A stretch of 64,000 bases of DNA from Serripes groenlandicus (taxonomy: Eukaryota; Mollusca; Bivalvia; Cardiida; Cardiidae): positions 75,126,014-75,190,013 of the forward strand of contig JASEVX010000008.1 of the NCBI GenBank assembly GCA_031761405.1, in the 5' to 3' direction. The number at the start of each line of letters is the position of its first letter. Positions within the stretch are counted from its first letter, which is position 1. Of the stretch, positions 1 through 29,307 are shown piece after piece. Position numbers and translations under genes: made by a program. A model generated the notes under the pieces. The model saw only the letters and a list, made by a program, of their open reading frames with translations, searched no databases and was not told the DNA's origin.

Positions 1-1763
1 GTATTCTATATAATGCAAGGGAAACAATCCATGCAGTCATAGTTTGCAAACATTTCATTTCCCCCTTAGTATCCAAATGTGAATTACCTGGACTGTTTAT
101 TTATGAAATCTGATGCTTCAGCAGATAAAAACCACATATTTACAGCCCCTAATTGGTCACCTTATCATGTTTTCTATCAAGAAAAGACACAGACCAGCCA
201 GAATGTTCACTTTTAGTAGTGAATTAGCCAAGGATAGAGGTTTAAAAGGATTAATAAGTGATTCAAAAGAGAAAACATGTCTGGAATATACAGAAAAAGT
301 TTTGTTAGCAGTAGTAATTCCAGCAAGAAGAAAGCCACCCAATTCAAAAAAGGTGGAAAAGCGTGGAACAAAGCAGCACAGAGGGCACCCTCGACGCCTG
401 TTTTGACAGAATCTCATTCTGCACCATATACTATCACCCGTCTCGACAGTATGGTGGCAATGGATGTGTTGACAGCCTCTGAGTTGTCCTCGTCATCTTA
501 TTCTTCTTCTTCTTCTTCTTTTTCTTCCTCCCCTCTTCCATACACCCTTCGACCAAAACCCGTAACGGAGAAATGCAACGAACTTCAACATATTAACGAG
601 AACATTATAGTGAATATGGGAAAAATGACAGAGTTGATCAACCATGTCCATGGATTTACGTGTGAAAATGCCAGGGCCAAAGCGGAAATTGTAAATAGGA
701 TTGGGCTGTGTGTTTCAGTGAGTGTAAAGTGTAGCACTTGTCGCCTGGATGTAAAACCTCATCAGATGTCACATACAGTGAAAAAGGATTCAGGACATCA
801 TGCAGGTGCACTTAATGAAATGGCAGTGATTCCGGCTGTTAAAACTAAGATGGGGCTAACAGACGTACACACAGTATTGGCATGTTTAGACATTAAAGCG
901 CCCAGCCTCACAGTTCTTCAAAGGAAGTTCAACTCACTCTGTGATAAAATGTCTGACCTAAATGAGAGGCAAATGATAGCAAATCAGCAATACTTAAAAA
1001 AAATAACATCACTGTTACCAGAGAAAACTGCAGCCATTCACACGCAGTTTGATGTTTCGTACTCCAGGCGGCCTCAGGGTGGAAGTGAGAAGGCGGAACA
1101 GAGTTTTGGCGTAATTATAGATCACTCCACCTGTCAAAAACTGCCAGTTGCAGCCGCAATAGCCAATAAGCACTGTAAATTGAGAGACTGTAATCACACG
1201 GGCGCAAAGTGCACAAAAACATACTGCTCCGACAAATCTATTGCCTCAAGTGAACGTTCACTCTTACACGACACTCTTGATAGTGTGAAAGATGCCGGTC
1301 ATATAACCATCAATTCTGTCACAACAGATGCTAGCACACAGCTATCAAAGGCACTTAGAGATTTCAACACAGAAAATCACACAAGAATTTCTCATTATAA
1401 GTGCTTCATACACAGAGTGAGAACATTAGAGAAACATGTCCGAAATCTCACACTGAAAAGCATACCTAGCACATACGACAAACGTGCGTATCGACAGAAA
1501 TTGTCACAGTGCGTGCGAGCCCGAATTAGGATGGAGCTTAGGAATTCCCGGGCATTGAAGAAAAGTGACCATGAATTTACGCGTTCCAGCGCTGCAGCAA
1601 TAAAAATCATAGCATGTTGCTTAGCGGGTAATCACCACAGTTGTCGGGAAAATTCCCTTGTCTGCAAAGGCCATCTTAGAACGTACACTACAACCTCACT
1701 GCCATATGGAGTACACTTAGAACTAAACAGGAATGACCTGGACACAGTTCAAAACGAAATAAA

Positions 1764-3031
1764 CAAGGGCACCGCAAAGCGGATGCATCCCCTCGGCTTT
1801 CCATTTTCACATTGAGTTCTCTTGTGATCTAAATATTTAAGTCCAATTTTTGACTTCGATCTTTGACCTATGACCTTGAATCAATAGGCTTCAAAATATT
1901 GTCACAAACTAACTGTATGCCAAGTTTGGATAAGATCTGTCAAGGAATGGTCAGTGTAGAGTGGTGACAGGGTTGCCACAGCTGAGATATATTGTAAGTT
2001 CAATCAAGTTCAATTTTGGGCATGACCTTTGACCTATGACCTTGAAAACCAATAGGCTTCAAGACATATCATAAACTAACTGTATAATAAGTTTTATTAA
2101 GATCGGTCAATGAATGGTCAGTGTAGAGTTGTGACAAGGCTGCCACAGCTGAAAATATTGTAAGTCCAATTTTGAGTTTGACCTTTGACCTATGACCTTG
2201 AAAATCAATAGGCTTCAAGATATTATCATAAAGTAACTGTATACCAAGTTTGGTTAAAATCTGTCAAGTAATGGTCAGTGTAGAGTGGTGACAAGGTTGC
2301 CACAGATGAAAATAGTGTAAGTGCAATTTTGGGCTTGACCTTTGACCTATGACCTTGAAAATCAATAGGCTTCAAATATTATCATAAACTAACTGTATAA
2401 TAAGTTTTATAAAGATCGGTCAAGGAATGGTCAGTGTAGAGTGGTGACAAGGCTGTCACAGCTGAAAATATTGTAAGTCCAATTTTGAACTTGACCTTTG
2501 ACCTATGACCTTGAAAATCAATAGGCGTCAAGATATTATCATAAAGTAACTTTATACCAAGTTTTGTTAAAATCCGTCAAGTAATGGTCAGTGTAGAGTG
2601 GTGACAAGGTTGCCACAGCTGAAAATATTGCAAGTCCAATTTTGGGCTTGACCTTTGACCTATGACATTAAAAATTAATAGGCTTCAAGATATTATTATA
2701 AAGTAACTTTATACCAAGTTTTGTTTAAATCCGTCAAGTAATGGTCAGTGTAGAGTGGTGACAAGGTTGCCACAGCTGAAAATATTGCAAGTCCAATTTT
2801 GGGCTTGACCTTTGACCTATTACCTTGAAAATCAATAGGCTTCAAGATGTTACCATATACTTACTTTATCTTAAGTTTGGTTAAGATCTGTCAAGAAATG
2901 GTTAGTGTAGAGTGATGACAAGGTTTGTTACGGAAGGACACACATACATACATACATACATACATACATACATACATGCGGACGGTCCCGTTACTATATC
3001 CCTTTCTCTCTTACTTCGTAACCGAGGGGAT
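1764..3031 (+). mobile_element. Pearl/HINE-type element, family 1, inside the copy A transposase
   Basis: The boundaries come from comparison with copy B, which is an uninterrupted version of the same site; at most 2 bp (AA) is repeated at the junctions. The layout is a unique 5' part, about seven tandem core units, a (ACAT)n microsatellite near 2941-2977, and a unique 3' part. Short inverted motifs lie near both ends: CCCCTCGG near 1790 and CCGAGGGG near 3022. This plan is that described for bivalve pearl elements, later grouped with Helentron-associated elements. It has no coding capacity. Confidence 0.8.
1855..2930 (+). repeat. About 7 tandem units of ~156 bp (HINE family 1 core)
   Basis: Each unit carries the phrases TTTGACCTATGACCTTGAAA, AATAGGCTTCAA and AATGGTCAGTGTAGAGTGGT. 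TTTGACCTATGACC recurs near 1862, 2025, 2180, 2338, 2494, 2650 and 2806, so the period is about 155-163 bp. Confidence 0.9.
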
Positions 3032-3388
3032 AATAAAATATTTGATGAGGAAGGTCTGAAAAGTATGTGCAAACTGTTCAATACGAACATGTGTGAGAGC
3101 CTGCATTCTCAAGTTTATAGACTCGCGCCAAAGTCAATCAGTTGGAGTCGCAACTTCCCTGGACTTTGTCATTCTGCAGTGCATTCCGCAACACTGGGAT
3201 CCAGTAAGTCTACCATACAATTAGCAGAAGCTGCCGGCATCAAAGTCAGCCAAAACTCAATGTTGTGTTGTATGTGCAATTACAGTCTAAAGACCGACTA
3301 AGTAAATACCATTCCAAAAGAAAGACAACAGCCGAATTTAAACAGAGAAGATATTATTTGCGAAAACGAAAGTCCTACAGGTCCCTAT

Positions 3389-3988
3389 TTACAAATTCTC
3401 TATACAGTGTGGAAAAAGCAGGCTCATCCAAAGCTCAAGAAAACAACTATGGCCTGTCATCATAAAACAAATTTGAAAATGAAATTTTAACAGCAGTTTC
3501 ATCAGCAGTAACCAGCAATCCAGCATTAACAAAGAACAACAACGAATCAACCCAACATAACAATTCTTTACCGTTTCTCCGCAGAAAATACACCTTCTGA
3601 ATCCTCTATGGCCAGTGCATTCCCCATTAGCCTGACATACTTTTCTGGCATTGTTGACAGAGTTGCTTTCATAGGATAGATGATCAAGATTAATGCACAG
3701 TTTATTATGGCACAAATGAGAGACATGAATGCATGGGCTAAGTTCAATTGGACTCTTCTCAATGAAATATGCTAGGCGATGAACAAGTAATTTCAACCGT
3801 TTACCACCAACAATGACCCGGTGAATACCATAGCCATATTTGTCAGTGGGACCAGTCCAAACTACACATTCACCGTAGGGCGCAGACTTGTCAGACAAAG
3901 CATGTCGTAAAATGTCGACTCTTCCACAAGGAATTGTAGACCGAAAGAAGACACTGGCCATAAGGTATGTGGTAAAAGGCTGAAACAT
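3389..3988 (-). CDS. His-Cys box (I-PpoI-like) endonuclease, copy A
   Basis: A 199-codon frame running opposite to, and just beyond the 3' end of, the transposase. Residues 85-133 match the zinc-bound core of the I-PpoI His-Cys box family: catalytic His91 in VSHLCHN, zinc ligands Cys41, Cys93, Cys98 and His103 for the first site, Asn112 (metal ligand) nine residues after His103, then Cys118, Cys124, His127 and Cys133 for the second site. An upstream ECVVWTG...GYG...VHRLAY stretch fits the family's beta-sheet part. The tail after residue ~140 looks random, and a GTAAAG follows ACG near 3570, so the real end may be there or at a splice site. The inferred activity is site-specific double-strand cleavage. 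No break is visible in the core. Confidence 0.72.
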   Translation of the reverse strand: MFQPFTTYLMASVFFRSTIPCGRVDILRHALSDKSAPYGECVVWTGPTDKYGYGIHRVIVGGKRLKLLVHRLAYFIEKSPIELSPCIHVSHLCHNKLCINLDHLSYESNSVNNARKVCQANGECTGHRGFRRCIFCGETVKNCYVGLIRCCSLLMLDCWLLLMKLLLKFHFQICFMMTGHSCFLELWMSLLFPHCIENL

Positions 3989-4166
3989 CAGAAATTATAC
4001 TAAAAGTCATTCATTTGATACAAAGAACCTGTAATTTCACCCCAAAAATTATAACAAAAGACTGCTTTAAATGCATGAGTTTCCTTAGAAATCTGCACTT
4101 TGTGTGATGTTTGGATTATCTCCCTTGTTCATATGCATTTTTTCATAACAAATAAGAGCCTTAGAG

Positions 4167-5279
4167 CAGAAAAGGCTGTAATTTTTTAAATGAGGGTGTT
4201 TTGGGTGCAAATTCAAGAAAATGTCAAACCACAATGTACCTATAAGGTGGCAATACACAGTAGAAAGTCAATCTTCCCGTAAACGCTCGACCCTCTTCTC
4301 TGTTAATCAAAAATCAACTGGCACAGAATCACTGAAATGAAATAAACCATTTTGTTGCAACAAAGGATGTCAGAATTATTAGAAAATAACAGTAAATCAA
4401 TGTATCAATCTGGATTTTGGAAATTTATAGCACTTTCAAACGACTTGTAAGGTCGCCAAAAAATGCAGAAAAAGACCATTTTTACCCTTAAATCGAAAAA
4501 TCACAACAAAAATTCGCAGGGGTTAGGGTTAAAAATCATCAGCTACTATGGGACCAAAACCTGTATGCAATCTGAGGATGCCTAAGGAAATACCACGTTA
4601 CCAGCTCCTTTGTGCACACTTTTCAACTGAAAAATGGTACCTTTGTTTACATGCAACAGAATGCTCCTAGCTCACAAAGTATAGATTCGCACTTCTGGCC
4701 ATACACAAGTAGACTCAAAGAGGATTTGTTTGTTTGGAGTTTAACGCCGCTTTCAACAGCTTACTCAAAGAGGAAAGGGTCAGATAGCAAAATTCAAACT
4801 CACACTGTATATTAATAAAACACACTAATATAAAATGATTTCAATCATTTTCAGTATGCTGAAGGCACAGAAATTTGTTTTAAACGATTTCAAACCCTTC
4901 ACTAAATTCACACATTTTATCCCAGTTTTTGGCAATTTTTTATCATTATTCCCCAACTGCAAGAAATGGATAAACTGTTCCGGTATGAGTGCAGTATCAC
5001 TTTTGATCACATTTTCTTATACATCTGTGCTCTCAGAGCTGGTATTGCACTGAATGCATGCCATGATTTTAACCTATAAGCTATTTGTTCCAAAATTCTC
5101 CACTGTTCTATCCTTTCAATGTGCATTTTCAGTAGAGTTATTTTCAATATTTTACCCTGAAAGACCTGCTGATGAACAGAAAAAGACATACATAGTCAAC
5201 TAGAATTAAAACAAGCTCACTTTATGTAAAAAAAAATAGCTTTCAGATAATTTCTGAGTCAATTTAATCCTTTCACAAG
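4167..5279. other. Spacer between copies A and B
   Basis: AT-rich, single copy in the window. I see no convincing gene; the open frames here (up to 72 codons) have no recognisable features. Bases near 4732-4760 (TTTGGAGTTTAACGCCGCTT) resemble a 3' tail motif common in molluscan SINEs. The segment may hold the 5' flank or promoter of copy B, or be lost from the far end of B. Confidence 0.5.
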
Positions 5280-5555
5280 GTATTCTATATAATGCAAGGG
5301 AAACAATCCATGCAGTCATAGTTTGCAAACATTTCATTTCCCCCTTAGTATCCAAATGTGAATTACCTGGGCTGTTTATTTATGAAATCTGATGCTTCAG
5401 CAGATAAAAACCACATATTTACAGCCCCTAATTGGTCACCTTATCATGTTTTCTATCAAGAAAAGACACAGACCAGCCAGAATGTTCACTTTTAGTAGTG
5501 AATTAGCCAAGGATAGAGGTTTAAAAGGATTAATAAGTGATTCAAAAGAGAAAAC

Positions 5556-7298
5556 ATGTCTGGAATATACAGAAAAAGTTTTGTTAGCAGTAGTAATTCC
5601 AGCAAGAAGAAAGCCACCCAATTAAAAAAAGGTGCAAACGCGTGGAACAAAGCAGCACAGAGGGCACCCTCGACGCCTGTTTTGACAGAATCTCATTCTG
5701 CACCGTCTACTATCACCCGTCTTGACAGTATGGTGGCAATGGATGTGTTGACAGCCTCTGAGTTGTCCTCGTCATCTTATTCTTCTTTTTCTTCCTCCCC
5801 TCTTCCATACACCCTTCGACCAAAACCCGTAACGGAGAAATGCAACGAACTTCAACATATTAACGAGAACATTATAGTGAATATGGGAAAAATGACAGAG
5901 TTGATCAACCATGTCCATGGATTTACGTGTGAAAATGCCAGGGCCAAAGCGGAAATTGTAAATAGGATTGGGCTGTGTGTTTCAGTGAGTGTAAAGTGTA
6001 GCACTTGTCGCCTGGATGTAAAACCTCATCAGATGTCACATACAGTGAAAAAGGATTCAGGACATCATGCAGGTGCACTTAATGAAATGGCAGTGATTCC
6101 GGCTGTTAAAACTAAATTGGGGCTAACAGACGTACACACAGTATTGGCATGTTTAGACATTAAAGCGCCCAGCCTCACAGTTCTTCAAAGGAAGTTCAAC
6201 TCACTCTGTGATAAAATGTCTGACCTAAATGAGAGGCAAATGATAGCAAATCAGCAATACTTAAAAAAAATAACATCACTGTTACCAGAGAAAACTGCAG
6301 CCATTCACACGCAGTTTGATGTTTCGTACTCCAGGCGGCCTCAGGGTGGAAGTGAGAAGGCGGAACAGAGTTTTGGCGTAATTATAGATCACTCCACCTG
6401 TCAAAAACTGCCAGTTGCAGCCGCAATAGCCAATGAGCACTGTAAATTGAGAGACTGTAATCACACGGGCGCAAAGTGCACAAAAACATACTGCTCCAAC
6501 AAATCTATTGCCTCAAGTGAACGTTCACTCTTACACGACACTCTTGATAGTGTGAAAGATGCCGGTCATATAACCATCAATTCTGTCACAACAGATGCTA
6601 GCACACAGCTATCAAAGGCACTTAGAGATTTCAACACAGAAAATCACACAAGAATTTCTCATTATAAGTGCTTCATACACAGAGTGAGAACATTAGAGAA
6701 ACATGTCCGAAATCTCACACTGAAAAGCATACCTAGCACATACGACAAACGTGCGTATCGACAGAAATTGTCACAGTGCGTGCGAGCCCGAATTAGGATG
6801 GAGCTTAGGAATTCCCGGGCATTGAAGAAAAGTGACCATGAATTTACGCGTTCCAGCGCTGCAGCAATAAAAATCATAGCATGTTGCTTAGCGGGTGATC
6901 ACCACAGTTGTCGGGAAAATTCCCTTGTCTGCAAAGGCCATCTTAGAACGTACACTACAACCTCACTGCCATATGGAGTACACTTAGAACTAAACAGGAA
7001 TGACCTGGACACAGTTCAAAACGAAATAAATAAAATATTTGATGAGGAAGGCCTGAAAAGTATGTGCAAACTGTTCAATACAAACATGTGTGAGAGCCTG
7101 CATTCTCAAGTTTATAGACTCGCGCCAAAGTCAATCAGTTGGAGTCGCAACTTCCCTGTACTTTGTCATTCTGCAGTGCATTCCGCAAAACTGGGATCCA
7201 GTAAATCTACCATACAATTAGCAGAAGCTGCCGGCATCAAAGTCAGCCAAAACTCAATGTTGTGTTGTATGTGCAATTACAGTCTAAAGACCGACTAA
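5556..7298 (+). CDS. MULE-like DDE transposase, copy B (intact 580-residue frame)
   Basis: Single uninterrupted frame. In order: basic N-terminus with a GxxxWNK motif (residues 26-32), a low-complexity serine stretch (70-81), a zinc-knuckle-like cluster (Cys141, Cys148, Cys151), then a putative catalytic core. The core has Asp255 in FDVSYS, Asp347 in VTTDAST, a CxxH pair (Cys372/His375), a GDHHSC...C zinc-like motif (about 447-459), and Glu513 in NMCESLH. D, D, CxxH, HxxC, E is the order seen in MULE-type transposases with the C/H insertion between the second D and the E. The aligned second family (C1-C3) shares NT.......E, RNF and HSAVHS around the glutamate. The predicted role is DNA cleavage and strand transfer of the element. 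After the stop, another frame (7262-7462, rich in Lys/Arg) looks like a lost C-terminus in both copies. The start at 5556 is chosen because the basic N-terminus matches the family 2 start. Confidence 0.78.
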   Translation: MSGIYRKSFVSSSNSSKKKATQLKKGANAWNKAAQRAPSTPVLTESHSAPSTITRLDSMVAMDVLTASELSSSSYSSFSSSPLPYTLRPKPVTEKCNELQHINENIIVNMGKMTELINHVHGFTCENARAKAEIVNRIGLCVSVSVKCSTCRLDVKPHQMSHTVKKDSGHHAGALNEMAVIPAVKTKLGLTDVHTVLACLDIKAPSLTVLQRKFNSLCDKMSDLNERQMIANQQYLKKITSLLPEKTAAIHTQFDVSYSRRPQGGSEKAEQSFGVIIDHSTCQKLPVAAAIANEHCKLRDCNHTGAKCTKTYCSNKSIASSERSLLHDTLDSVKDAGHITINSVTTDASTQLSKALRDFNTENHTRISHYKCFIHRVRTLEKHVRNLTLKSIPSTYDKRAYRQKLSQCVRARIRMELRNSRALKKSDHEFTRSSAAAIKIIACCLAGDHHSCRENSLVCKGHLRTYTTTSLPYGVHLELNRNDLDTVQNEINKIFDEEGLKSMCKLFNTNMCESLHSQVYRLAPKSISWSRNFPVLCHSAVHSAKLGSSKSTIQLAEAAGIKVSQNSMLCCMCNYSLKTD

Positions 7299-7385
7299 GT
7301 AAATACCATTCCAAAAGAAAGACAACAGCCGAATTTAAACAGAGAAGATATTATTTGCGAAAACGAAAGTCCTACAGGTCCCTAT

Positions 7386-7985
7386 TTACAAATTCTCTAT
7401 ACAGTGTGGAAAAAGCAGGCTCATCCACAGCTCAAGAACACAACTATGGCCTGTCATCATAAAACAAATTTTAAAATGAAATTTTAACAGCAGTTTCAGC
7501 AGCAGTAACCAGCAATCCAGCATTAACAAAGAACAACAACGAATCAACCCAACATAACAATTCTTTACCGTTTCTCCGCAGAAAATACACCTTCTGAATC
7601 CTCTATGGCCAGTGCATTCCCCATTAGCCTGACATACTTTTCTGGCATTGTTGACAGAGTTGCTTTCATAGGATAGATGATCAAGATTAATGCACAGTTT
7701 ATTATGGCACAAATGAGAGACATGAATGCATGGGCTAAGTTCAATTGGACTCTTCTCAATGAAATATGCTAGGCGATGAACAAGTAATTTCAACCGTTTA
7801 CCACCAACAATGACCCGGTGAATACCATAGCCATATTTGTCAGTGGGACCAGTCCAAACTACACATTCACCGTAGGGCGCAGACTTGTCAGACAAAGCAT
7901 GTCGTAAAATGTCGACTCTTCCCCAAGGAATTGTAGACCAAAAGAAGACACTGGCCATAAGGTATGTGGTAAAAGGCTGAAACAT
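7386..7985 (-). CDS. His-Cys box (I-PpoI-like) endonuclease, copy B
   Basis: Near-identical to the copy A nuclease (199 codons). It keeps the same catalytic His, Asn and eight zinc ligands, with a few substitutions outside the core (for example FFWSTIPWG instead of FFRSTIPCG near residues 14-22). It lies tail-to-tail with the intact copy B transposase, 88 bp beyond that gene's stop, so this unit has both frames open. Whether both proteins are made cannot be told from sequence; no clear polyadenylation or promoter signal was assigned. Confidence 0.72.
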   Translation of the reverse strand: MFQPFTTYLMASVFFWSTIPWGRVDILRHALSDKSAPYGECVVWTGPTDKYGYGIHRVIVGGKRLKLLVHRLAYFIEKSPIELSPCIHVSHLCHNKLCINLDHLSYESNSVNNARKVCQANGECTGHRGFRRCIFCGETVKNCYVGLIRCCSLLMLDCWLLLLKLLLKFHFKICFMMTGHSCVLELWMSLLFPHCIENL

Positions 7986-8165
7986 CAGAAATTATACAAA
8001 AAGTCATTCATTTGATACAAAGAACCTGTAATTTCACCCCAAAAATCATAACAAAAGACTGCTTTAAATGCATGAGTTTCCTTAGAAATCTGCACTTTGT
8101 GTGATGTTTGGATTATCTCCCTTGTTTATATGCATTTTTTCATAACAAATAAGAGCCTTAGAGCA

Positions 8166-8790
8166 ACACAATCCACTGTTAAATATGTGGGTCATCATAA
8201 ATGAAACAAATATAGATCAAGTCCTGAATTAATAAAATTTAAATCATAAATAGAAATATATGAATTAACTAATTTAAAAAATAAATGATGGAAACCAAAA
8301 ACCAATATTGATAAGATTTGTATCGACTGAGTGTACCAAACACGGCAGACTAAATAATGTAAACAAAGCAATGCATATTAACGAGAGAAGGTAATCTCGT
8401 GACTAGGTAACCATGGCAAAAAAAGAACATTCATTGAGCACGTTCATGTTTTATAAGTGTTACTATGTAACAGTGTATACATTAACCAAGGATGGGATAT
8501 TATAAAACTCTGATTACAGTTACCAAGTGGCTATGAGTAGAGTACGGGCTATGACTGACATAGAGTCTATCTCTGTATACACAAATAGCTATGGGCCACC
8601 ACGACTTTACCGACTCTAAATCTACGAGAGACTCGAAACTCTCTAAACGAGAATCGAGTCGGTAAACTTTGTGTTGATACCCGGCACAAATATAAATATT
8701 ATTGTTGTCTGGGTCTACACTGATCCCTTCTGGCCTGACCGTTCTATTGTTTTGTGATAGACTACTTCTCCCTTATCGTTCATACAAAGC
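8166..8790. other. Junction DNA between families 1 and 2, with a hairpin
   Basis: No gene seen. Bases about 8604-8668 form an inverted repeat with arms TTTACCGACTC and GAGTCGGTAAA and a second, shorter inverted pair inside. It could be the end of a MITE or a stalled foldback element. Confidence 0.5.
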
Positions 8791-9491
8791 ACCAACTTGA
8801 CACAAGGCATCTCGGTGCTAATCAGCGAAAGTACATCAAAGCATCAAACAAGGTTACCACAATCATGCCAGTGAAAATGAAGGCATATCGGCAGTACACA
8901 CAAAACAGGTTTGCATTAGATATGAGCAAACGCTGTCAGGCTGAACTTCATTATATCATCAAGAAGAAATCGAAAAAAATATCCTAGACGACACGCGCGT
9001 CATGATATCCACTATAAAGCAATGATTTGCAGGGAACCATAGTCTGTGCAGGATGAATTCAGCTGTGTGCAAAGGGGAAACGAACAATAACTGGCTTTTC
9101 AACAGTATTTTTCTATCCAGCACATTCAAAATAGACATAAAGAAGGAGGAGAATGAGAAAATCTTAAAGGAGATGATTGAATATCGCCTGGGAGATGAAA
9201 CTGTCCAGCTAACCAGGCTAAATACCAACACACAGAAAGTTGAGGGGACAAATTGAGCCATTAAACGTTCCTTACCCAAAGACAAGACGTTTTCAAGGAA
9301 CTTCCAGTCACGTGCACACTGTGAGTGCCCTACACTCTGTCAATAATGGACACGGAAAATCCTTGCACAAACTTTGTTCTGCTGCCGGATGTGCAATTCC
9401 TTCAGGAAGTGTGCTGACTGTCAGTTCGAGTCGCTCCAAACTAACTCTGAAGAGAAAAAAACATGCGAAAAGTCCATTGAATTCAAATTGA
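8791..9491 (+). pseudogene. MULE-like transposase, family 2, copy C1 (5'-truncated)
   Basis: Begins abruptly at the equivalent of HQLDTRHLGANQRKY, so the N-terminal half, including both putative catalytic Asp residues, is missing. It shares with C2 the same stop where C3 has Cys (AATGATTTGC, near 9022) and the same frame break near AAAAAAATATCCTAG. A further stop (ACAAATTGAGCC, near 9252) is unique to C1. The region with KVEG, which holds the putative catalytic Glu, and the C-terminal CxxC-like part (CCRMCNSF) are still recognisable in shifting frames. Clearly dead. Confidence 0.8.
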
Positions 9492-9574
9492 AGCGTAAGC
9501 TACGAAGACAGCGGCTATTCAAACTGTCAACTCTTTGCAAAGCTGTGTACATCTGCCATCTGGCCAAGTAACCC

Positions 9575-9766
9575 TCATGACACAGACAGGATAACCATCC
9601 CTGTCTGTGTAACCCATCCACTCCAGGCATTCTGACCCTCCCCCCGGGTCCTAGAGTGTTTTTCTATGGCATTCTCCAGCTTTAGCCAAAACTTGTATGG
9701 ATATTCCATTTTATAAACGTTTGATGATGAAGGTCTCAACATTTCGTCTGTATACAAGGAGTACAA
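9575..9766 (-). pseudogene. N-terminal remnant of family 2 endonuclease (C1)
   Basis: The - strand frame carries LKLENAIEKHSRT, the same lead-in found upstream of the C3 nuclease core. The zinc-binding core itself is deleted here: the C3 counterpart bases (about 22055-22485) are replaced by a ~45 bp unrelated stretch. The same deletion is present in C2. Confidence 0.65.
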
Positions 9767-9829
9767 GTGATGAAAATGAGCGAAAAGGGGGAAAAAGTAC
9801 TGAAAACTAAGCCCTGCTTTAAATCAAAT

Positions 9830-11905
9830 TCTGTATTCCGATAAATGGCATTTAAATTTACTTTCAATTTCAGAGAATACAGCATGTTCTGAAAGTGGCT
9901 CTTAATGTGTCAACATAGCTAAAAGCAAACACTTTTTTTATTATAAATCAGTCACAGGTCACATAATTGTCCAATGGGAGACAACTTCAATCCCATATAT
10001 TCATCTGAAATTCCCTGGACAAAATTGTCTTCCCAGCAAGCCAATCCGATTTACTTCCCTTTGACCTAAATCAAATTCTGTTTTATCGATAAACGGCATA
10101 ATTTTTACATTTTATTATATGGCCGTCTATAATTGCAGACTTACAAACAAAATTTCAATCAATTTGGTTGAACGGTTATGGAAAAGTAGCAATTTCCCTT
10201 TACCCTCTGTGCACTGTGCTATTCTGTACACTTATAATATGATGGCCTCCCTTGACCAAAAATAGAATTTTTTAATTCTTAAAAAGGGACTTATAAATCC
10301 AACTTCGAATGGTATTTGTGTTGGTTTGACAATCGCCACAATGCTAACAGAAACAACAACATTGAAAAATATTTACATAGTCGATTTTGAACAGATTTTG
10401 AACAATCGGTTGAATTTTTTTTTCCTTACTGCAAACTAATTTACTCACATCCGTTATAGTTCCATCATTGATGCCGAGACGTTATTAATAATAATTATGT
10501 CAGTGCTACTTTGGTACCGGATTGTTACTAATATTTGAGTTTATCGAGACATTATCTACATAGAGTTAAAATATGTAAATATTATCTTCGTCATGATTGT
10601 GCAGATAATAAATATCATTGCGCGTTCTATATGCCTTGCAAATAACTCTGATGATACTCAAATCTGGAAATTCCAAAAGGTTCTATAAATAGCTCAATAT
10701 TATAAACGCTTTATTGTGTAGTTGTTTAAATATATGAAAGCGTCTAGATGATAAGACTGGTTTACAAAGGTTTAAAGGACACACGATGTCAGTGTGTACA
10801 CACGTTATGTATACACGTCTGCACGTTCTAGAGTCAATTAGCAATCAATGCTGAAAGTGTAGCCTAATTTAGTTTGGAGATCGAGCATTATAATATATGC
10901 CTATATTTTTATAAATTGAACAGTTTGGCAAATACTGAAATTGTGCTTTTTGAGCATGTTTTGTGTTTGTTTTTGCACTCACATTATTCGAAGCAGTTTA
11001 ACAACCTCAGAGACATATAAATACACTTTGTGTATATGTCTCTGACAATCCTCAATCATGCAATGTGAAGGGACTAAATTGAACAGACCTGTTTAATATC
11101 GGACATCATTGAAACAAACACCAAACTAATGGATACTGTTTTCTCTCCTTTCTTGATAATTTAGTCATTTCTAAAGTGTAAAAAATATTTTAATATTAAT
11201 ATGGCCTAGCGACCTGGTGATGAACATGTGATTACCCGAACAATTTAGATTACAAATAGCCATTATAATGAGCTAAAACGGTAGTCTATCGAATACCAAC
11301 TAGATTTTTCATAACTTTGGAATGGCCTAATTTTGAACACATCATGACCAATTTCAGAACGTAACTAAAAAATCACCAAGACAACATTCTGGCAAACTAA
11401 CATTATTCTATTGTCAAAAGATGCAGGGTTGATACATTCTCAAATTTACCCGCACCAGAGTCATCGCAAGCCCTACACCGATATACTGCTTGTTACTTTG
11501 CAGGATTTTCCATACGATCGCCACTACAGTGCCATTGGCGCTTTGATTTTGTTAGTTTTCATTCTGTTTGGGTGTTTTTAACATTTCAAACGCTCTAGTA
11601 GTCATTGAAAACTTAAATTTGCTGATGTTAATTAACATTTAATGACATAGCCCACATTTGCATCAAAGTTTGATTCTTTTTCACATTATTTTATATGTAT
11701 CATACACTGAAAAGTCAGTTTTGGCATAAATCTGTTCCAAATGTTAGCAGCAATGTCTCATAGGTATATACCTTTTCCTACACTGTTGTCTTATCATTTT
11801 ATTATTGTTTTTTTGACAGCTGAGCAGGTCCAGTCCTTGATAAGGGACTCAAATGTGCTAGTCTAATAGGTTTTAGGTGACATATTGACCTCCATGGAAG
11901 GGGCT
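9830..11905 (+). repeat. Flanking repeat of family 2 and C2 upstream DNA
   Basis: Bases 9850-10310 recur at about 18800-19290 and, partly, at 22930-23200 (shared phrase CAGCATGTTCTGAAA, then TGTCAACATAGCTAAAAGCA). A diverged copy is at 23340-23510. Bases from about 11550 to the C2 start recur at 19310-19660. The 1.2 kb piece 10310-11550 is absent from the C3 side, so it is either an insertion here or a deletion there. It has no gene; a 37 bp palindrome around 11009-11046 (CAGAGACATATA...TATATGTCTCTG) is the only structure I see. Confidence 0.75.
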
Positions 11906-12005
11906 CTTTGTGTCTCAGTCTGTAGTAAGCAAGCCTTTAGGCAACACTAAAACAGGATACATTCTTATTTGTTCATATAAATTGAGTTTTTGGAGGTTTT
12001 TCATC

Positions 12006-14193
12006 ATGAAAGGTGACAAGAAGCGGAGAAAATCCATGTTCAAACGTGGAAATAAATGTGGGTCGGGACGTCAAAGTGTTTCTAAAGTGACTCCTAACAG
12101 TGAATATGTAAGACCGACTGCGGAAGAGGCTGAATTAATGGATGTAGACCAAGTTGTTCATGATGCAATGACATCTACGTCAAATTCAACAGACCAGAAG
12201 CCAGACGTCATGTTGTTGCACCCCAGACTCAAACAGCCAGAGTACAAGTGTACTGCAAGCAGAACGACAAGTTATTTTGGGTGAGTACACATTATACAGC
12301 ATAGAAATATACCTTTAAACTGACATTGACTTGATATCTGCAATTTTGAGAGATAAATAAGGAGTTGAAGGTGCACTTAATTCTTCAGTTTACTGTCAAA
12401 GGGAGATAACTCAGTAGACCTTATGCACACAAAGCTAATTCAAGAGGTTTTCAGTTCTGATCACCCATGATATTCCATATAATATACAGACTCATGCAGT
12501 CAAACCCGAAACACAATGAAATTGAATCAATCCATAGGTTAACTTTAAGAGAGAAAACATCCTGGGAAAAGGAGATATTGCTCAATATAATCATTTCCAC
12601 CATTTTCTGCAATAATTTCAAATTATGCCTGCTGCAGAAGTGTTTTCATAGGAGAATAGGTAATGTAAATTAACAAAATGAGGAATCAAGCATGTTTTTA
12701 TACTCAATTTTAGCCAGGAGCATGACTGCTACAAAATATTTCACGTCGCAAAGCTCTTAGAGATGTTTAATATGGTCAATATGGAGCAAAGGTCCAGTTT
12801 TCCAAACTGTCGAGAGAATCTCACATTAGACAATAAAAGTGAAGACAGAAGAGGTCTCGTTTGGAGGGAGAGAATGACATGTTGCACATGTTTATATGTG
12901 TCTAAAATGCACAAGGTTTACACAGAGGTATCTTCCCCAACAAAGAGATGAGGTTGCAAGATGGCTACAGCAAATCTGGGCTTAAATATAGCGTTGACTC
13001 AAAACCCCGATTGGGGGATCTAGTCTCGATCGACTTTTGGCTGGTGGAAATATTGGGTCCCATCACGTCGGGGCGTAACTTGTAAGGAGTAGCAAAGCAA
13101 CTAGTGAAGTCATTGTTGCTGAGAATAAGGCTGACATGTCCAACCGACCGCAGCAGTTGCGAAAAATTAACCGGTGACAAGGTCGGCCAGAAAATGAGAT
13201 TCCTGTGCAGGTAGACGGCGTATATAACAACAACCTTTATTCTGGAGTTGGAAGAACCCAATTTCAGCCCGCAACCCAGTGCATTGTAACAGTGGCGGAA
13301 AATATCACCCCACGTAAGCAGTTGGTGGCAGTCGAGGCAGTCAGTAAATTATGCTCCAAGCATGGTTTTCACACAAAGGAGGATGTAGGGCAGTGTGATA
13401 TTCAGGATGGTAAATGTTTAGCAACTGTCAGTATGGAGACTAATACTTGGGACGAGCAACAATGGGCCGAAACATGCTTCCGCAACCTTAAAAATGATGG
13501 CATGGAGGTGAAATTTGTAACCACAGATGGGGATGGAAAATCGTTTCAGGCGGCACGCCAGCTTCACACGTCTGGATATACAAAAACTATTCCTGTGCAC
13601 CAACTTGACACAAGGCATCTCGGTGCTAATCAGCGAAAGTACATCAAAGCATCAAACAAGGTTACCACAATCATGCCAGTGAAAATGAAGGCATATCGGC
13701 AGTACACACAAAACAGGTTTGCATTAGATATGAGCAAACGCTGTCAGGCTGAACTTCATTATATCATCAAGAAGAAATCGAAAAAAATATCCTAGACGAC
13801 ACGCGCGTCATGATATCCACTATAAAGCAATGATTTGCAGGGAACCATAGTCTGTGCAGGATGAATTCAGCTGTGTGCAAAGGGGAAACGAACAATAACT
13901 GGCTTTTCAACTGTATTTTTCTATCCAGCACATTCAAAATAGACATAAAGAAGGAGGAGAATGAGAAAATCTTAAAGGAGATGATTGAATATTGCCTGGG
14001 AGATGAAACTGTCCAACTAACCAGGCTAAATACCAACACACAGAAAGTTGAGGGGACAAATAGAGCCATTAAACGTTCCTTACCCAAAGACAAGATGTTT
14101 TCCAGGAACTTCCAGTCACGTGCACACTCGAGTCGCTCCAAACTAACTCTGAAGAGAAAAAAACATGCGAAAAGTCCATTGAATTCAAATTGA
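12006..14193 (+). pseudogene. MULE-like transposase, family 2, copy C2 (spliced, decayed)
   Basis: Exon 1 (from ATG 12006, MKGDKKRRKS) ends at 12280 before a canonical GTGAGT. Exon 2 starts at 12714 after a pyrimidine-rich tract and TAG; the junction restores a phase 2 codon and joins frames that match family 1. Exon 2 has the cysteine knuckle (RMTCCTC), the first Asp (VQVDGVYNN), the second Asp (VTTDGDGKS), a DTRH motif where family 1 has CxxH, and the Glu (KVEGTN). Lesions include CGA to TGA near 12949, a frame shift before 13205, a stop near 13794 and one near 13830, and loss of the C-terminus by the deletion shared with C1. Predicted function in its intact ancestor: transposition. It is about 9-10% of the window including flanks. 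Confidence 0.82.
12281..12713 (+). other. Intron of family 2 transposase (C2)
   Basis: 433 bp. Donor GG|GTGAGT, acceptor TTTTAG|CC. The same splice sites bound a 442 bp intron in C3 (20034-20475). No intron is seen in family 1. Confidence 0.75.
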
Positions 14194-14228
14194 AGCGTAA
14201 GCTACGAAGACAGCGGCTATTCAAACCG

Positions 14229-14528
14229 TCAACTCTTTGCAAAGCTGTGTACATCTGCCATCTGGCCAAGTAACCCTCTTGACAAAGACAGGATAACCAT
14301 CCTTGTCTGTGTAACCCATCCACTCCAGGCATTCTGACCCTCCCCCGGGGTCCTAGAGTGTTTTTCTATGGCATTCTCCAGCTTTAGCCAACACTTGTAT
14401 GGATATTCCATTTCATAAACGTTTGATGATGAATGTCTCAAAATTTCGTCTGTATACAAGGAGTACAAGTGATGAAAACTGAAAACTAAGCCCTGTTTTA
14501 GGTCAAAGGGATGTAAATCATTTTCCAT
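14229..14528 (-). pseudogene. N-terminal remnant of family 2 endonuclease (C2)
   Basis: Carries LKLENAIEKHSRT as in C1 and C3 but lacks the His-Cys core because of the deletion shared with C1. Confidence 0.6.
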
Positions 14529-14626
14529 AGGCGACCATTATAGCATTATGGGTTATGGTTCATTACCAGCAAATGAATTAACACATATACCTGTATCAAA
14601 CTAATGTTCATTCTTAGAACTACCAA

Positions 14627-15710
14627 ACAAGAGGGCCATGATGGCCCTGGAATCGCTCACCTGATTTTTTTTTTTACTTTAGCTATATAAGCCCCGACCA
14701 ATCAACATGGCTTAAAGGAATCTGATAGAGGGTCATCCAAGGAACATTTCTACAAAATTATTTGAAAATCATCCTGACACTTTTGGAGGAGAAGATCTTT
14801 TAAGTTTTCACTATTGCCATATAACGCAAAAAAGCCCCGCCCCCCCTGGCGGCCATGTTTTTCGACCAATCAACATGGCTTCAAGGAATCTGATAGAGTC
14901 ACCCAAGGAACATTTCTACAAAATAAGTTCAAAATCTGCCAACCAATTTGGGAGGAGAAGAATTTTGAAGTTTTTTTCGTTTCGTTGCCATGGAAACCAG
15001 AATTCTGCATGGATCCCAATAATTTGAAGGAATTCTGGTGAGGTCATTGAGAGGATGCTTTCTTTGAAGTTTCATCCCAATTAACCCACTGGTTACTGAG
15101 GAGAAGATGTTGAAGATTTTTTAAGTTTTCACTATAACCATAAAAGGCAAAATAGCCCCGCCCCCTGGCGGCCATGTTTATCGACCAATCAACATGGCTT
15201 AAAGGAATCTGATAGAGGGTCACCCAAGGAACATTTCTACAAAATTATTTGAAAATCGGCCTGACATTTTTGGAGGAGAAGATTTTTTAAGTTTGCACTA
15301 TAGCCATATTGGCAAAATAGCCCCCCCCCCCCAACCCTGGGGGCCATGTTTTTCGACCAATCAACATGGCTTGAAGGAATCTGATAGAGGGTCACCCAAG
15401 GATCATTTCTACAAAATAATTTGAAAATCGGCCTGACACTTTGGGAGGAGAAGATTTTGAAGAATTTTGAAGTTTTTTTCATTTCGTTGCCATGGAAAAC
15501 AGAATTCTGCATGGATCCCTAAAATTTTAAGGAATTCTGGTGAGGACATTGCGCGGATGCTTTCTGTGAAGTTTCATCCCAGTTGACCCACCGGTTACAG
15601 AGGAGAAAATGTTGTCGGACGACGGACGACAGACGACGGACGACGGACGACGGACATAGGGCGATCACAATAACTCACCCTGAGCACTTCGTGCACAGGT
15701 GAGCTAAAAA
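14627..15710 (+). mobile_element. HINE family 2, copy P1
   Basis: Starts with ACAAGAGGGCCATGATGGCC and GCTCACCTGA, has tandem core units of ~171 bp (CGACCAATCAACATGGCTT recurs at about 14696, 14868, 15184 and 15355), then a run of GACGGAC repeats near 15616-15658, then a 3' hairpin (CTCACC...GGTGAG) and AGCTAAAAA. GCTCACCTG at the 5' side and CAGGTGAGC at the 3' side are inverted. No coding capacity; the small frames inside are chance. Its left flank is the C2 end. Confidence 0.85.
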
Positions 15711-15967
15711 TAAGGGAGCTTTGATCAGATCTCAAAGTCAACCAAAAACCACCAAAATCATGTTTTTTACCCCCAAAATAGGTCAAACTCAGTATCTTTA
15801 ACATACAATGTGAAGAAGGGTATTAGATGAACAAGTTTTCCAAGTTTCAAAGTATTATGTTTGATAGTTTCCATGTAAGTGAGCTAAACGCAAAACTTAA
15901 CCAACGCCGACGACGATCAAGTGACGACAATAGCTCGTCTTTTTTTCCCAAAAATCAGACAAGCTAA
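15711..15967 (+). mobile_element. 3' fragment of another HINE family
   Basis: Ends in a GCCGACGACG run followed by ATAGCTCGTCTTTTTTT and AAGCTAAAAA, the same kind of 3' end as P1 but with different sequence. No gene. Confidence 0.45.
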
Positions 15968-16224
15968 AAACCAATTGAATAATATGATCAAATAAAAGAA
16001 AGAATATATAAACTGCAAGCTTGTGAGTCTTGTTATCCCTCATTTTCACCTGATGATTTAACTAATGGTCCTCTACTAATGGATAATTCTATTTGATGAA
16101 AACAATTGAATGATATTATCATATAAAAGAATGAATATATAAACCGCAAGCTTGTGAGTTATTTTTTAAGTGATGAATTAGGTATCGATCAGCTACAATA
16201 TACCGAAGGATAATTCTGTTTCAC
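15968..16224 (+). repeat. AT-rich direct repeats between HINE copies
   Basis: A segment with GAATATATAAAC(C/T)GCAAGCTTGTGAGT occurs twice (near 16002 and 16132), and a related piece follows P2 (17487-17635). These may be remains of an older element into which P2 and P3 inserted. Confidence 0.5.
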
Positions 16225-17485
16225 AACAAGAGGGCCATGATGGCCCTGGAATCGCTCACCTGATTTTTTTTTTCACTTTAGCTATATAAGCCCCGCCATC
16301 TGGCGGACATAGTTTCCGACCAATCGACTTGGCTTGAAGGAATCCGATAGAGGGTCACTCTAGGAACATTTCTACAACATTATTTGAAAATCGGCCTGAC
16401 ACTTTTGGAGAAGAAGATTTTTTAAGTTTGCACTATAGCTATATAAGGCAAAATAGCCCCGCCCCCCCTGGCGGCCATAATCTTTGACCAATCAACATGG
16501 CTTAAAGGAATCTGATAGAGGGTCATCCAAGGAACATTTCTACAAAATTATTTGAAAATCAGCCTGACACTTTTGGAGGAGAAGATTTTTTAAGTTTTCA
16601 CTATAGCCGTATAAGGCAAAAAAGCCCTGCCCCCCTGGCGGCCATGTTTTTCGACCAATCAACATGGCTTCAAGGAATCTGATAGAGAGTCACCCAAGGA
16701 ACATTTCTACAAAATAAGTTCAAAATCTGCCAACCAATTTGGGAGGAGAAGAATTTTGAAGCTTTTTTCGTTTCGTTGCCATGGAAACCAGAATTCTGCA
16801 TGGATCCCAATAATTTGAAGGAATTCTGGTGAGGTTATTGAGAGGATGCTTTCTGTGAAGTTTCATCCCAATTGACCCACTGGTTACTGAGGAGAAGATG
16901 TTGAAGATTTTTTAAGTTTTCACTATAACCATAAAAGGCAAAATAGCCCCGCCCCCTGGCGGCCATGTTTTTCAACCAATCAACATGGCTTGAAGGAATC
17001 TGATAGAGGGTCACCCAAGGAACATTTCTACAAAATTATTTGAAAATCGGCCTGACACTTTTGGAGGAAAAGATTTTTTAAGTTTGCACTATAGCCATAT
17101 AAGGCAAAATAGCCCCCTCCCCCCTGGCGGCCATGTTTTTCGACCAATCAACATGGCTTGAAGGAATCTGATAGAGGGTCACCCAAGGATCATTTCTACA
17201 AAATAATTTGAAAATCGGCCTGACACTTTCGGAGGAGAAGATTTTTTACGAATTTTGAAGTTTTTTTCATTTCGTTGCCATGGAAACCAGAATTCTGCAT
17301 GGATCCCAAAAATGTTAAGGAATTCTGGTGAGGACATTGAGAGGATGCTTTCTGTGAAGTTTCATCCCAGTTGACCCACCGGTTACAGAGGAGAAAATGT
17401 TGACGGACGACGGACGACGGACGCCGGACATAGGGCGATCACAATAACTCACCCTGAGCACTTCGTGCACAGGTGAGCTAAAAAA
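16225..17485 (+). mobile_element. HINE family 2, copy P2
   Basis: Same plan as P1: AACAAGAGGGCC start, several ~171 bp cores with a 145 bp variant segment (TTTCGTTGCCATGGAAACCA), a short GACGGAC run (about 17403-17425), hairpin 3' end with the GAGCACTTCGTGCACAGG loop form. Confidence 0.85.
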
Positions 17486-17636
17486 CAATTAAATAATATT
17501 ATCATATAAAATAATGAATATATAAACCGTGAGTCTAGTTTTCCCTCATTTTCAAATGATGAATTAACTATTGGTCAGTTACGATATATCAAAGGATAAT
17601 TCTATTTGATGAAAAACGATTGAATAATATTATCAT

Positions 17637-18725
17637 ACAAGAGGGCCATGATGGCCCTGGAATCGCTCACCTGATTTTTTATTTTCACTTTAGCTATATA
17701 AGCCCCGCCCCATGGCAGCCATAGTTTCCGACCAATCAACTTGGCTTGAAGGAATTTGATAGAGGGTCATCCAAGGAACATTTCTACAAAATTATTTGAA
17801 AATCAGCCTGACACTTTCGGAGGAGAAGATTTTTTAAGTTTTCACTTTGGCCATATAAGGCAAAATAGCCCCGCCCCCTGGCGGCCATGTTTTTCGACCA
17901 ATCAACATGGTTGAAGGAATCTGATAGAGGGTCACCCAAGGAACATTTCTACAAAATAATTTGAAAATCGGCCCGACACTTATGGAGGAGAAGATTTTTT
18001 AAGTTTTCACTATAGCCATAAAAGGCAAAATAGCCCCGCCCCCTGGCGGCCTTGCTTTTTGACCAATCAACATGGCTTGAAGGAATCTGATAGAGGATCA
18101 TCCAAGGAACATTTCTACAAAACTATTTGAAAATCGGCCTGACACTTTTGGAGGGGAAGATTTTTTAAGTTTGCACTATAGCCATATAAGGCAAAATAGC
18201 CCCGCCCCCCCTGGGGGCCATGTTTTTCGACCAATCAACATGGCTTGAAGGAATCTGATAGAAGATCACCCAAGGAACATTTCTACAAAATTATTTGAAA
18301 ATTGGCCTGACACTTTCGGAGGAAAAGATTTTTTAAGTTTTCACTATAGCCATATAAGGTAAAATAGCCCCGCCCCCCCTGGCGGCCATGTTTTTCGACC
18401 AATCAACATGGCTTGAAGGAATCTGATAGAGGGTCATCTAAGGAACATTTCTACAAAATTATTTGAAAATCTGCCAACCAGTTTGGGAGAAGAAGAATTT
18501 TGAAGTTTTTTCGGTTTCGTTGCCATGGAAACCAGAATTTTGCATGGATCCCAAAAATTTGAAGGAATTCTGGTGAGGTCATTGAGAGGATGCTTTCTGT
18601 GAAGTTTCATCCAAATTGACGCACTGGTTACTGAGGAGAAGAAGTTGACGGACGACGGACGACGGACGCCAGACAAAAGGCGATCACAATAACTCACCTT
18701 GAGCAAAGCTCAGGTGAGCTAAAAA
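17637..18725 (+). mobile_element. HINE family 2, copy P3
   Basis: Same family. Its 3' hairpin is of a second form, CTTGAGCAAAGCTCAGG, shared with P4 but not P1/P2. Its right flank (AAGCAAAACAAACTCACATG) resumes the C2-side flank, as judged from the uninterrupted C3 copy at 22855. Confidence 0.85.
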
Positions 18726-19662
18726 GCAAAACAAACTCACATGTTCACCATTTTTTGACAGAGCTAGGTGGTCAAATCAAAGGTGACCCTTATCCCGCAC
18801 TGAAATTTACTTTCAATTTCAGAAAATACAGCATGTTCTGAAAATGGCTCTTAATGTGTCAACATAGCTAAAAGCAAACACTATTTTTATCATAAATCAG
18901 TCACAGGTTATTCAACTTAATAAACAACACTTTCAACTTCCAACAAAATCATTATTGTCCAATGGGAGACAACTTCAATCCCATATATTCATCTGAAATT
19001 CCCTGGACAAAATTGTCTTCCCAGCAAGCCAATCCGATTAACTTCCCTTTGACCTAAATCAAATTCTTTTTTATCGATAAACGGCATAATTTTTACATTT
19101 TAGTATATGGCTGTGTATTGCAGACTTACAAACAAAATTTCAATCAATTTGGTTGAACGGTTATGGAAAAGTAGCAATTTCCCTTTACCCTCTGTGCACT
19201 GTGCTATTCTGTACACTTATAATAGGATGGCCTCCCTTGACCAAAAATAGAATTTTTTAATTCTTAAAAAGGGACTTATAAATCCAACCTCAAATGTTTT
19301 TCGTGTTAGTTTTCATTCTGTTTGGGTGTTTTTAACATTTCAAATGCTCTAGTAGTCATTGAAAACTTAAATTTGCTGATGTTAATTAACATTTAATGAC
19401 ATAGCCCACATTTGCTTCAAATTGTGATTCTTTTTCACATTATTTTATATGTATCATACACTGAAAAGTCAGTTTTGGCATAAATCTGTTCCAAATGTTA
19501 GCAGCAATGTCTCATAGGTATATACCTTTTCCTACACTGTTGTCTTATCATTTTATTATTGTTTTTTTGACAGCTGAGCAGGTCCAGTCCTTGATAGGGA
19601 CTCAAATGTGCTAGTCTAATAGGTTTTAGGTGACATATTGACCTCCATGGAAGGGGCTCTTT
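18726..19662 (+). repeat. Flanking repeat of family 2, upstream of C3
   Basis: Bases to about 19290 repeat 9840-10310, and 19310-19660 repeat 11560-11908. No gene besides these. Confidence 0.8.
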
Positions 19663-19758
19663 GTGTCTCAGTCTGTAGTAAGCAAGCCTTTAGGCAACAC
19701 TAAAACAGGATACATACTTATTTGTTCATATAAATTGAGTTTTTGGAGGTTTTTCATC

Positions 19759-22046: not shown

Positions 22047-22259
22047 AGCGTAAGTTACTGAGACAGCAAACTGTACGAAAAGCATCGTGAGCAAAAAAAT
22101 ATGTGAAAAATCAACTGACAGCATATCTACGAAAAAACAAAATCACCGACTAAGACACAAAATCTGCCACACATTATACAAGTCGGGGCCAACACTGACC
22201 ATGATGAATATGCTCGGAAACAAATAAAGTTGAGGCGAAGAAGAAGTAGTGTACCTACA

Positions 22260-22547
22260 TCAGAAGATGCATGCAGGCTTGTGCCCAAGGCAGGACCCTC
22301 TGGCCACACAATGACGACGCCCAGTGTTAACATAATGGGGTTCAACGGTAATATGACCTTCTTTTATGCATCTCTTATTGTGACAGAGGTGACTGACATC
22401 CATGCAATTTCCATGTGTGTCAACCTCTACCAGCTCGGACCTATGTCTAATCATCAAGATCAACCGCTGAACAAGGGTCTGTGTACATCTGCCATCAGGC
22501 CAAGTAACCCTCTTGACAGGATAACCATCCCTGTCTGTGTAACCCAT
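22260..22547 (-). CDS. His-Cys box (I-PpoI-like) endonuclease, family 2 (C3)
   Basis: A 95-codon frame from ATG 22547. His53 in DVSHLCHN is the catalytic position, Cys55, Cys60, His65 the first zinc site, Asn74 nine residues on, then Cys80, Cys86, His89 and Cys93. Each spacing up to Cys86 equals that in family 1. The frame is open a little further upstream (SECLEW, which supplies the first-site Cys) to a TAG near 22582. A longer lead-in (LENAIEKHSRT, 22460-22696) lies in another frame, so the gene as a whole needs one frame shift to be whole. It is convergent with the C3 transposase. Function inferred: site-specific nuclease. Likely inactive if the shift is real. Confidence 0.68.
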   Translation of the reverse strand: MGYTDRDGYPVKRVTWPDGRCTQTLVQRLILMIRHRSELVEVDTHGNCMDVSHLCHNKRCIKEGHITVEPHYVNTGRRHCVARGSCLGHKPACIF

Positions 22548-22699
22548 CCACTCCAGGCATTCTGACCCTCCCCCGGGGTCCTAGAGTGTTTTTCTATGGC
22601 ATTCTCCAGCTTTAGCCAACACTTGTATGGATATTCCATTTCATAAACGTTTGATGATGAATGTCTCAAAATTTCGTCTGTATACAAGGAGTACAAGTG

Positions 22700-23510: not shown

Positions 23511-23667
23511 CCAGTCGTGGCACTACGGTCATGGTGGAGTGCCCTTGGGCAAGGCACATTTTCTAGCCTAGTACTGGTTTGTTTACCCAGGAATGATGAA
23601 TAATTAAATTTAATTGCGCGCTAAATGACCTTAGCTGTTGATGCGCCATAAAACAATATACATTCAT
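23511..23667 (+). mobile_element. SINE-like retroposon with 14 bp target duplication
   Basis: Flanked by TCCAATGGGAGACC at 23497-23510 and 23668-23681. The insert contains CCTTGGGCAAGGCAC, a motif of a common molluscan repeat, and ends in a short AT-rich tail. It sits in the repeated flank described above. Confidence 0.75.
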
Positions 23668-23739
23668 TCCAATGGGAGACCACTTCAGTCTTATGCATCG
23701 TCTGAAATCCACTGGACAAAATTGTCAGCCCGGCAAGCC

Positions 23740-23872
23740 GAATCCGGGTGTATTCGGCCCAAAATTTATTCGGCCTGGTCTTTTTCGGGCCAAAATTAAT
23801 TCGGCCTGGTCTTTTTAGGCCCAAAATTTATTCGGCCTGGTCTTTTCGGCCCAAAACGTATTCGGCCTATTT
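23740..23872 (+). repeat. CGGCC minisatellite (~33 bp x 4)
   Basis: Units read TATTCGGCCCAAAATTTATTCGGCCTGGTC with small variation. An inverted, shorter version lies at 38945-38996. The frames crossing it are chance. Confidence 0.8.
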
Positions 23873-29291: not shown

Positions 29292-29307
29292 AGAGAGGAG
29301 CGAATCC

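Follow-up and report, generated by a model that had tools for sequence, protein, structure and literature searches.

The first 23 kb of a 64,000-nucleotide stretch of the bivalve Serripes groenlandicus (contig JASEVX010000008.1, positions 75,126,014 to 75,190,013; the whole stretch is called the window below), animal DNA by its look, are occupied by two tandem groups of transposon copies, the pair A/B and an older family C. It is highly probable that A and B are tandem copies of a mobile element, very likely of the KolobokP type, in which the frame of a DDD/E-type transposase faces the frame of an I-PpoI-like His-Cys box nuclease. This pairing is real and common to the two families in the window. 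However, it is already known: the association was published in 2022 (Kojima and Bao, PMC9587614), and therefore the novelty that a first-pass annotation, made from the sequence alone, had suggested for a nuclease within a transposon is gone. As the pair is tied to a published lineage, it does not warrant a transposon class of its own. Two small testable points are added. One is the presence of tandem copies in which the transposase is damaged and the nuclease still open, where the published model of nuclease-driven multiplication could be examined. The other concerns the nuclease message, which is probably spliced and reaches into the 3' end of the transposase gene.

KolobokP denotes transposons of the Kolobok superfamily found in seven animal phyla, with 228 published families (PMC9587614). 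As described by Kojima and Bao, they carry a DDD/E transposase and, downstream on the other strand, an I-PpoI-like nuclease, both enclosed by long terminal direct repeats (LTDRs), which measure about 450 or 660 bp and have short inverted ends of up to 18 bp (5'-RR and YY-3'). The nuclease pairing is a trait of most KolobokP families, and solo LTDRs and multimers are common. Target site duplications of 3-5 bp surround the whole insertion, multimers show them at the outer ends, and INT-INT junctions, usually with a loss of 3-4 bp, are taken as traces of excision. The same authors give a CCHC motif after the first D and a zinc finger after the CxxH motif as marks of Kolobok and KolobokP transposases; according to them, MuDR, P and hAT transposases are devoid of a zinc finger in the interval from the second D to E.

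Both proteins of copy B gave matches in the profile check that the first-pass annotation had proposed: PF20700 ('Mutator-like transposase') for the transposase, with an E-value of 7.5e-30, and PF05551 (zf-His_Me_endon) for the nuclease, with 2.7e-10. A protein search that scored the 7,989 candidates sharing most words revealed at least 13 relatives of the transposase. We compiled a 14-row transposase alignment (A1) and a 22-row nuclease alignment (A2), which also served as profiles. D255, C296, C301, H303, C308, D347, C372, H375, C444, H449, C452, and C459 are invariant in all 14 rows of A1, and E513 is present in each of the 12 rows that cover its column, P0025 and P0034 being gapped there. 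Conserved are hence all the motifs listed before (D255, D347, CxxH, HxxC and E513). Their assignment to the superfamily of Mutator-like elements (MULEs), in contrast, is not supported: a CCHC motif (C296, C301, H303, C308) follows the first D, a second zinc finger (C444/H449/C452/C459) lies between CxxH and E, both of Kolobok type, and Pfam listed no MULE model besides PF20700 at E-values up to 1. Among solved structures, no match to the transposase was obtained at E-values up to 1.

Two open frames of 580 and 199 residues had been annotated in copy B, and both exist at the given positions (Table 1). However, the 580-residue frame is not full length in comparison with P0022, a protein of 634 aa and 98% identity, the closest among the matches listed. 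The last 64 residues of P0022, ending in EHNYGLSS, are replaced by 11 others in the window frame. Copies A and B both hold the missing C-terminal stretch in another frame, in B as far as 7462, and hence have one late frameshift in common. Judged by its sequence, the 580-aa protein is shortened but retains D, D and E. Since the late frameshift is common to A and B, while P0022 is without the change, the pair has most likely arisen by duplication of an already altered copy. The convergent arrangement of the two frames was described correctly, but their spacing is 87 bp instead of 88 bp, and this gap is itself a by-product of the frameshift, because the transposase C terminus continues in another frame.

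In a blastn self-comparison, copy B aligns to copy A in two blocks, with 98.6% identity to positions 1-1763 and 98.8% to 3032-4168. Both copies carry the transposase/nuclease pair. The insertion between the blocks in copy A contains a tandem array with a period of 157 bp at 2006-2925, as delimited by Tandem Repeats Finder. At 4705-4775, the spacer between A and B contains a short piece of about 47 bp, flanked on either side by a 12-bp direct repeat (actcaaagagga), which resembles the insertion of a truncated short interspersed nuclear element. An inverted-end pair at 4080-4102 and 4568-4590 was considered for A/B and dropped, as it begins with TT against the RR rule.

The His-Cys box of the copy B nuclease had been called full, and the alignment agrees. 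C41, H91, C93, C98, H103, and N112 are invariant in the 22 rows of A2, while C118, C124, H127, and C133 are conserved at 90% or more; all eight zinc-binding His/Cys positions are present, plus H91 and N112 of the I-PpoI type. We take the zinc ligands to form two sets, C41, C93, C98, H103 and C118, C124, H127, C133, respectively. The register to I-PpoI was taken from the profile match. When run against solved sequences, the A2 profile matched five at E-values up to 0.001, with I-PpoI as the sole molecule (E 5.1e-7). Along this line, the top four Foldseek matches of a predicted nuclease model, which has a mean predicted local distance difference test score of 80.6, are I-PpoI (E 1.9e-4); the superposition is modest overall, with a template modeling score of 0.35-0.41 and a root-mean-square deviation of 7.3. 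Catalytic roles of the I-PpoI-type His and Asn, here H91 and N112, are taken from PMC9587614. The nuclease frames of A and B differ by five amino acid changes, two near the N terminus (16 and 21), three in the tail (163, 172 and 183) and none in the box (41-133), plus one more codon change, which is silent.

Behind the box, six nuclease homologues stop 2-3 residues past the last Cys, and most of the longer ones continue into Leu- or Cys-rich sequence. Our tail test covered 14 rows; the eight of the 22 rows with fewer than eight residues after the last-Cys column were left out. In 13 of these 14 long tails, a Val precedes a residue whose codon starts with A, and 4-6 residues separate this Val from the last Cys; P0003 is the single misfit. 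Shuffling each of the 14 tails produced 4.6 such cases on average and never reached 13 in 2000 trials, to be read with the restriction that the rows are related rather than independent, P0001 and the window sequence being close relatives. In the window, the tail Val codon opens GTAAAG at 7568, and TTTTATGATGACAG/G closes a stretch of 118 bp at 7451. We infer that this stretch is a short intron in the nuclease gene and that its 5' splice site is conserved. The last ~60 residues of the 199-aa frame are then probably a translation of the intron, and the predicted spliced nuclease would have 148 aa and end at 7421. With this predicted splicing, the transposase and nuclease genes probably overlap by 42 bp instead of being separated by a gap, because the transposase frame is truncated by the frameshift and its true C terminus runs to 7462. 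The main text of PMC9587614 contains no words beginning with 'splice', 'overlap' or 'frameshift'.

An older, KolobokP-like family lies in tandem at 8789-23190 and shows the gene pair, LTDRs and a multimer layout. Its copies C0, C1 and C2 were placed by running both protein profiles against all six frames (hmmsearch) and by DNA self-comparison (blastn). The multimer layout is A-B in the younger pair and C1-LTDR-C2-LTDR in the C family. The two LTDRs of 462 and 461 bp align end to end, and both have 20-bp inverted ends of the type AGGTCAAAGGG...CCCTTTGACCT, with 5'-RR and YY-3', matching at 18 of 20 positions. Transposase pieces of the C family are of mixed strength, some strong (e.g., 21254-21907, E 6.5e-15) and others weak. 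C0 and C1 retain only the first part of the nuclease, where their DNA aligns with C2 at 94.4% and 96.1%, and the same 411 bp are missing from both relative to C2, a loss that takes away most of the nuclease. An INT-INT-like junction is located at 9815/9816, where the right tip of an internal region is directly joined to a left tip; unlike the KolobokP junctions in PMC9587614, it reveals no 3-4-bp loss, as far as its edges can be placed.

Table 1. Position of transposon features in the window, and of nuclease-like frames on one contig outside of it (last line). Slashes mark predicted splice sites.
Feature	Position	Strand	Description	Basis
Copy A	1..4168	+	left end cut by window start; interrupted at ~1764-3031	blastn
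Insertion in copy A transposase	1764..3031	+	~1.27 kb; holds 157-bp tandem repeat array	blastn
Nuclease frame, copy A	3389..3988	-	199 aa	PF05551, E 2.7e-10
Copy B	5280..8165	+	internal region as far as copy A matches; left limit is an effect of the window start, not biology	blastn self-comparison
Transposase frame, copy B	5556..7298	+	580 aa, C-terminally truncated by frameshift; D255, CCHC 296-308, D347, CxxH 372-375, zinc finger 444-459, E513	PF20700, 14-row alignment
Stop-to-stop frame with remaining transposase C terminus (...EHNYGLSS)	7205..7462	+	stop included	hmmsearch, A1 profile positions 556-623, E 4.1e-25; translation
His-Cys box (His-Me finger) nuclease frame, copy B	7386..7985	-	199 aa, uninterrupted	PF05551 zf-His_Me_endon, E 2.7e-10
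His-Cys box proper, copy B	7587..7865	-	residues 41-133	invariant or nearly invariant columns, 22 rows
Predicted 118-bp nuclease intron	7451..7568	-	G/GTAAAG ... TGATGACAG/G	splice-like sites and tail pattern
C0, 3' part of older element	8789..9815	+	nuclease remnant 9522-9650 (-), weak, E 0.0029	blastn, hmmsearch
Partial LTDR between C0 and C1	9848..10067	+	right inverted end intact, 10048-10067	
C1, internal region	10068..14499	+	insertion at ~10328-11546 (~1.2 kb, left part); nuclease remnant 14224-14352 (-), weak, E 0.0042	
Middle LTDR	14500..19055	+	14500-14626 plus 18721-19055, 462 bp in total; inverted ends match 18/20	
C2, internal region	19056..22729	+	decayed transposase on +	
C2 nuclease frame	22263..22580	-	His-Cys box residues present; 41% identical to copy B nuclease	PF05551, E 1.1e-11
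Right LTDR of C2	22730..23190	+	461 bp; terminal inverted repeats 22730-22749 / 23171-23190, 18/20	
Nuclease-like frames on the Verrucomicrobia contig L001	418-1209; 2263-3036; 4332-4826		E 1.2e-14; 2.2e-7; 3.2e-12, respectively	A2 profile

Downstream of each of the five transposase copies detected in the window (A, B, C0, C1 and C2) lies a convergent nuclease or a remnant of one. Because of this pairing, and because it is published for most KolobokP families (PMC9587614), the view of the first-pass annotation that both genes belong to one element is supported. We also ran the A1 and A2 profiles on viral contigs and genome contigs, and P0022 on phages. No further element was found in the viral and prokaryotic contigs and the phages; the single locus obtained, L001, is a 5,782-bp contig of a Verrucomicrobia metagenome-assembled genome with three nuclease-like frames in a row. 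Outside the window, the co-occurrence of the gene pair rests on PMC9587614 and not on loci found here.

Several observations weigh against the KolobokP reading of A and B and the model of multiplication that goes with it. No LTDR was established for A/B: the left end of A lies outside the window and the match of B stops at 8165. Scans for inverted ends in A/B yielded only candidates no better, or hardly better, than chance. The best one, 4090-4687 in the A-B spacer, has a length of 598 bp, which is neither ~450 nor ~660 bp, and shuffled sequences equalled it in 7 and 8 of 100 cases, depending on the version of the scan; in a wider scan, its score was matched by 11 of 20 shuffles. No target site duplication is readable, the outer left ends of both arrays being outside the window or lost. 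With respect to strict pairing, L001 is without a clear transposase (one match of 22 residues, E 0.052), from which it follows that nucleases of this kind also occur apart from the transposase. Finally, C0 and C1 appear to have been duplicated as a unit although both had lost most of the nuclease, which suggests that an array can grow even where a copy has no nuclease of its own, though a nuclease could act in trans.

Could the nuclease be a separate homing element, i.e., a group I intron or a free-standing homing gene, that inserted beside a Mutator-like transposon before the pair was duplicated? Group I introns in rDNA are the best-known home of His-Cys box nucleases (PMC9587614), the near-identical copies A and B by themselves count as one event, and the nuclease-like frames of L001 are accompanied by no clear transposase. 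However, the C family, whose C2 nuclease is 41% identical to that of copy B, has the same arrangement at the same relative place, and PMC9587614 reports this arrangement from seven animal phyla. Moreover, an Rfam search of positions 1-25000 gave no match at E-values up to 0.1, and hence no group I intron or rRNA. We consider such an origin scarcely credible. Only slightly better stands the idea of a true MULE of the MuDR superfamily (elements with target duplications of 8-9 bp) that took up a nuclease independently of KolobokP, which we regard as very improbable. PF20700 bears the Mutator-like name and the C/DxxH motif is shared, but both the CCHC motif behind the first D and the zinc finger behind CxxH mark Kolobok and KolobokP, the second-D-to-E zinc finger is stated to be lacking in MuDR, P and hAT (PMC9587614), no other MULE model was listed for the transposase at E-values up to 1, and the C family has LTDRs of KolobokP type.

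The reading of A/B as KolobokP copies entails a possible mode of multiplication. By analogy to the published lineage, excision and insertion of units would be the task of the transposase, acting on the short inverted ends of the LTDRs. For the nuclease, binding as a dimer and cleavage of a semi-palindromic site are predicted, with the site lying within or at the LTDRs or in abutted-end DNA; such a cut would provoke repair or unequal crossover and thereby give rise to further LTDR-internal units. Nuclease-driven multiplication is the model of Kojima and Bao, who mark it as awaiting experimental validation (PMC9587614); for A/B, the enzymatic activities, the cut site and the mechanism of multiplication are presumed along these lines. 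A and B, arranged in tandem with an altered transposase and an open nuclease, agree with this model; neither they nor C0 and C1 prove a cause. The alternative that host recombination simply duplicated a segment with a dead transposon, the nuclease being uninvolved, contests this mechanism only, is compatible with KolobokP, and in our estimate has a little less than an even chance. It is favored by the late frameshift shared by A and B, by their identity of 98.6-98.8%, by the richness of the window in tandem repeats, and by the apparent duplication of C0 and C1 with most of the nuclease gone. On the other hand, the tandem layout recurs in the C family and is common in published KolobokP elements, with target duplications at the outer ends (PMC9587614), which does not show that the nuclease is causative.

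A farther-reaching proposal is that the nuclease, and not the transposase, keeps the arrays growing by in-place copying of LTDR-internal units after the transposase has failed, and that its gene is spliced, with the 3' splice site antisense across the last transposase codons, so that the two genes would be interlocked. In C2, the transposase is decayed while the His-Cys box is still complete, and A and B share the transposase frameshift while their nuclease is open. Taken as a whole, we regard this proposal as rather unlikely.

Further repeats were observed in the window. The middle LTDR of the C family is split by a satellite-rich insertion of ~4.1 kb (14627-18720) with tandem arrays of 168-172 bp, and related arrays are located at 24354-25326 and, inverted, near 46377-46860. 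Directly past the right LTDR, at 23191-23746, more diverged LTDR-like sequence follows (67-85% in pieces), which gives the impression of a landing in an older LTDR. Long minus-strand frames at 26347-31081 include a reverse transcriptase at 27240-29291 (PF00078, E 4.8e-18), and their layout suggests a DIRS-like retrotransposon; two other frames scanned there had no Pfam match at E-values up to 0.01. Tandem arrays of 53 bp lie at 43988-45095 (~21 units) and 59528-62525 (~57 units). ARAGORN found no tRNA gene in the window.

Among known systems, KolobokP is closest. A/B share with it the CCHC motif after the first D, CxxH, the second zinc finger, the convergent downstream nuclease and the tandem copies, and the C family shares LTDRs near 450 bp, inverted ends and RR..YY termini. 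Differences are given by the inverted ends of the C family, which have 20 bp compared to the reported maximum of 18 bp (PMC9587614), and by the LTDRs of A/B, not established in the window. Of the solved proteins, I-PpoI, a homing endonuclease from an rDNA intron of Physarum, matches the nuclease best by sequence and fold and shares the His-Me finger, the eight zinc-binding His/Cys and the catalytic His and Asn, whereas the window nuclease is encoded in a transposon and not in a group I intron in rDNA. With MULE/MuDR transposons (PF20700, 'Mutator-like') the transposase has in common the C/DxxH motif between the second D and E, but the window element has zinc fingers of Kolobok type, accompanied by LTDRs in the C family. 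KolobokE, KolobokD and KolobokH, as described in PMC9587614, belong to the same transposase superfamily and likewise combine the transposase with an accessory nuclease or helicase, although their accessory proteins are of other kinds (PD-D/ExK, DEDDh and RecQ).
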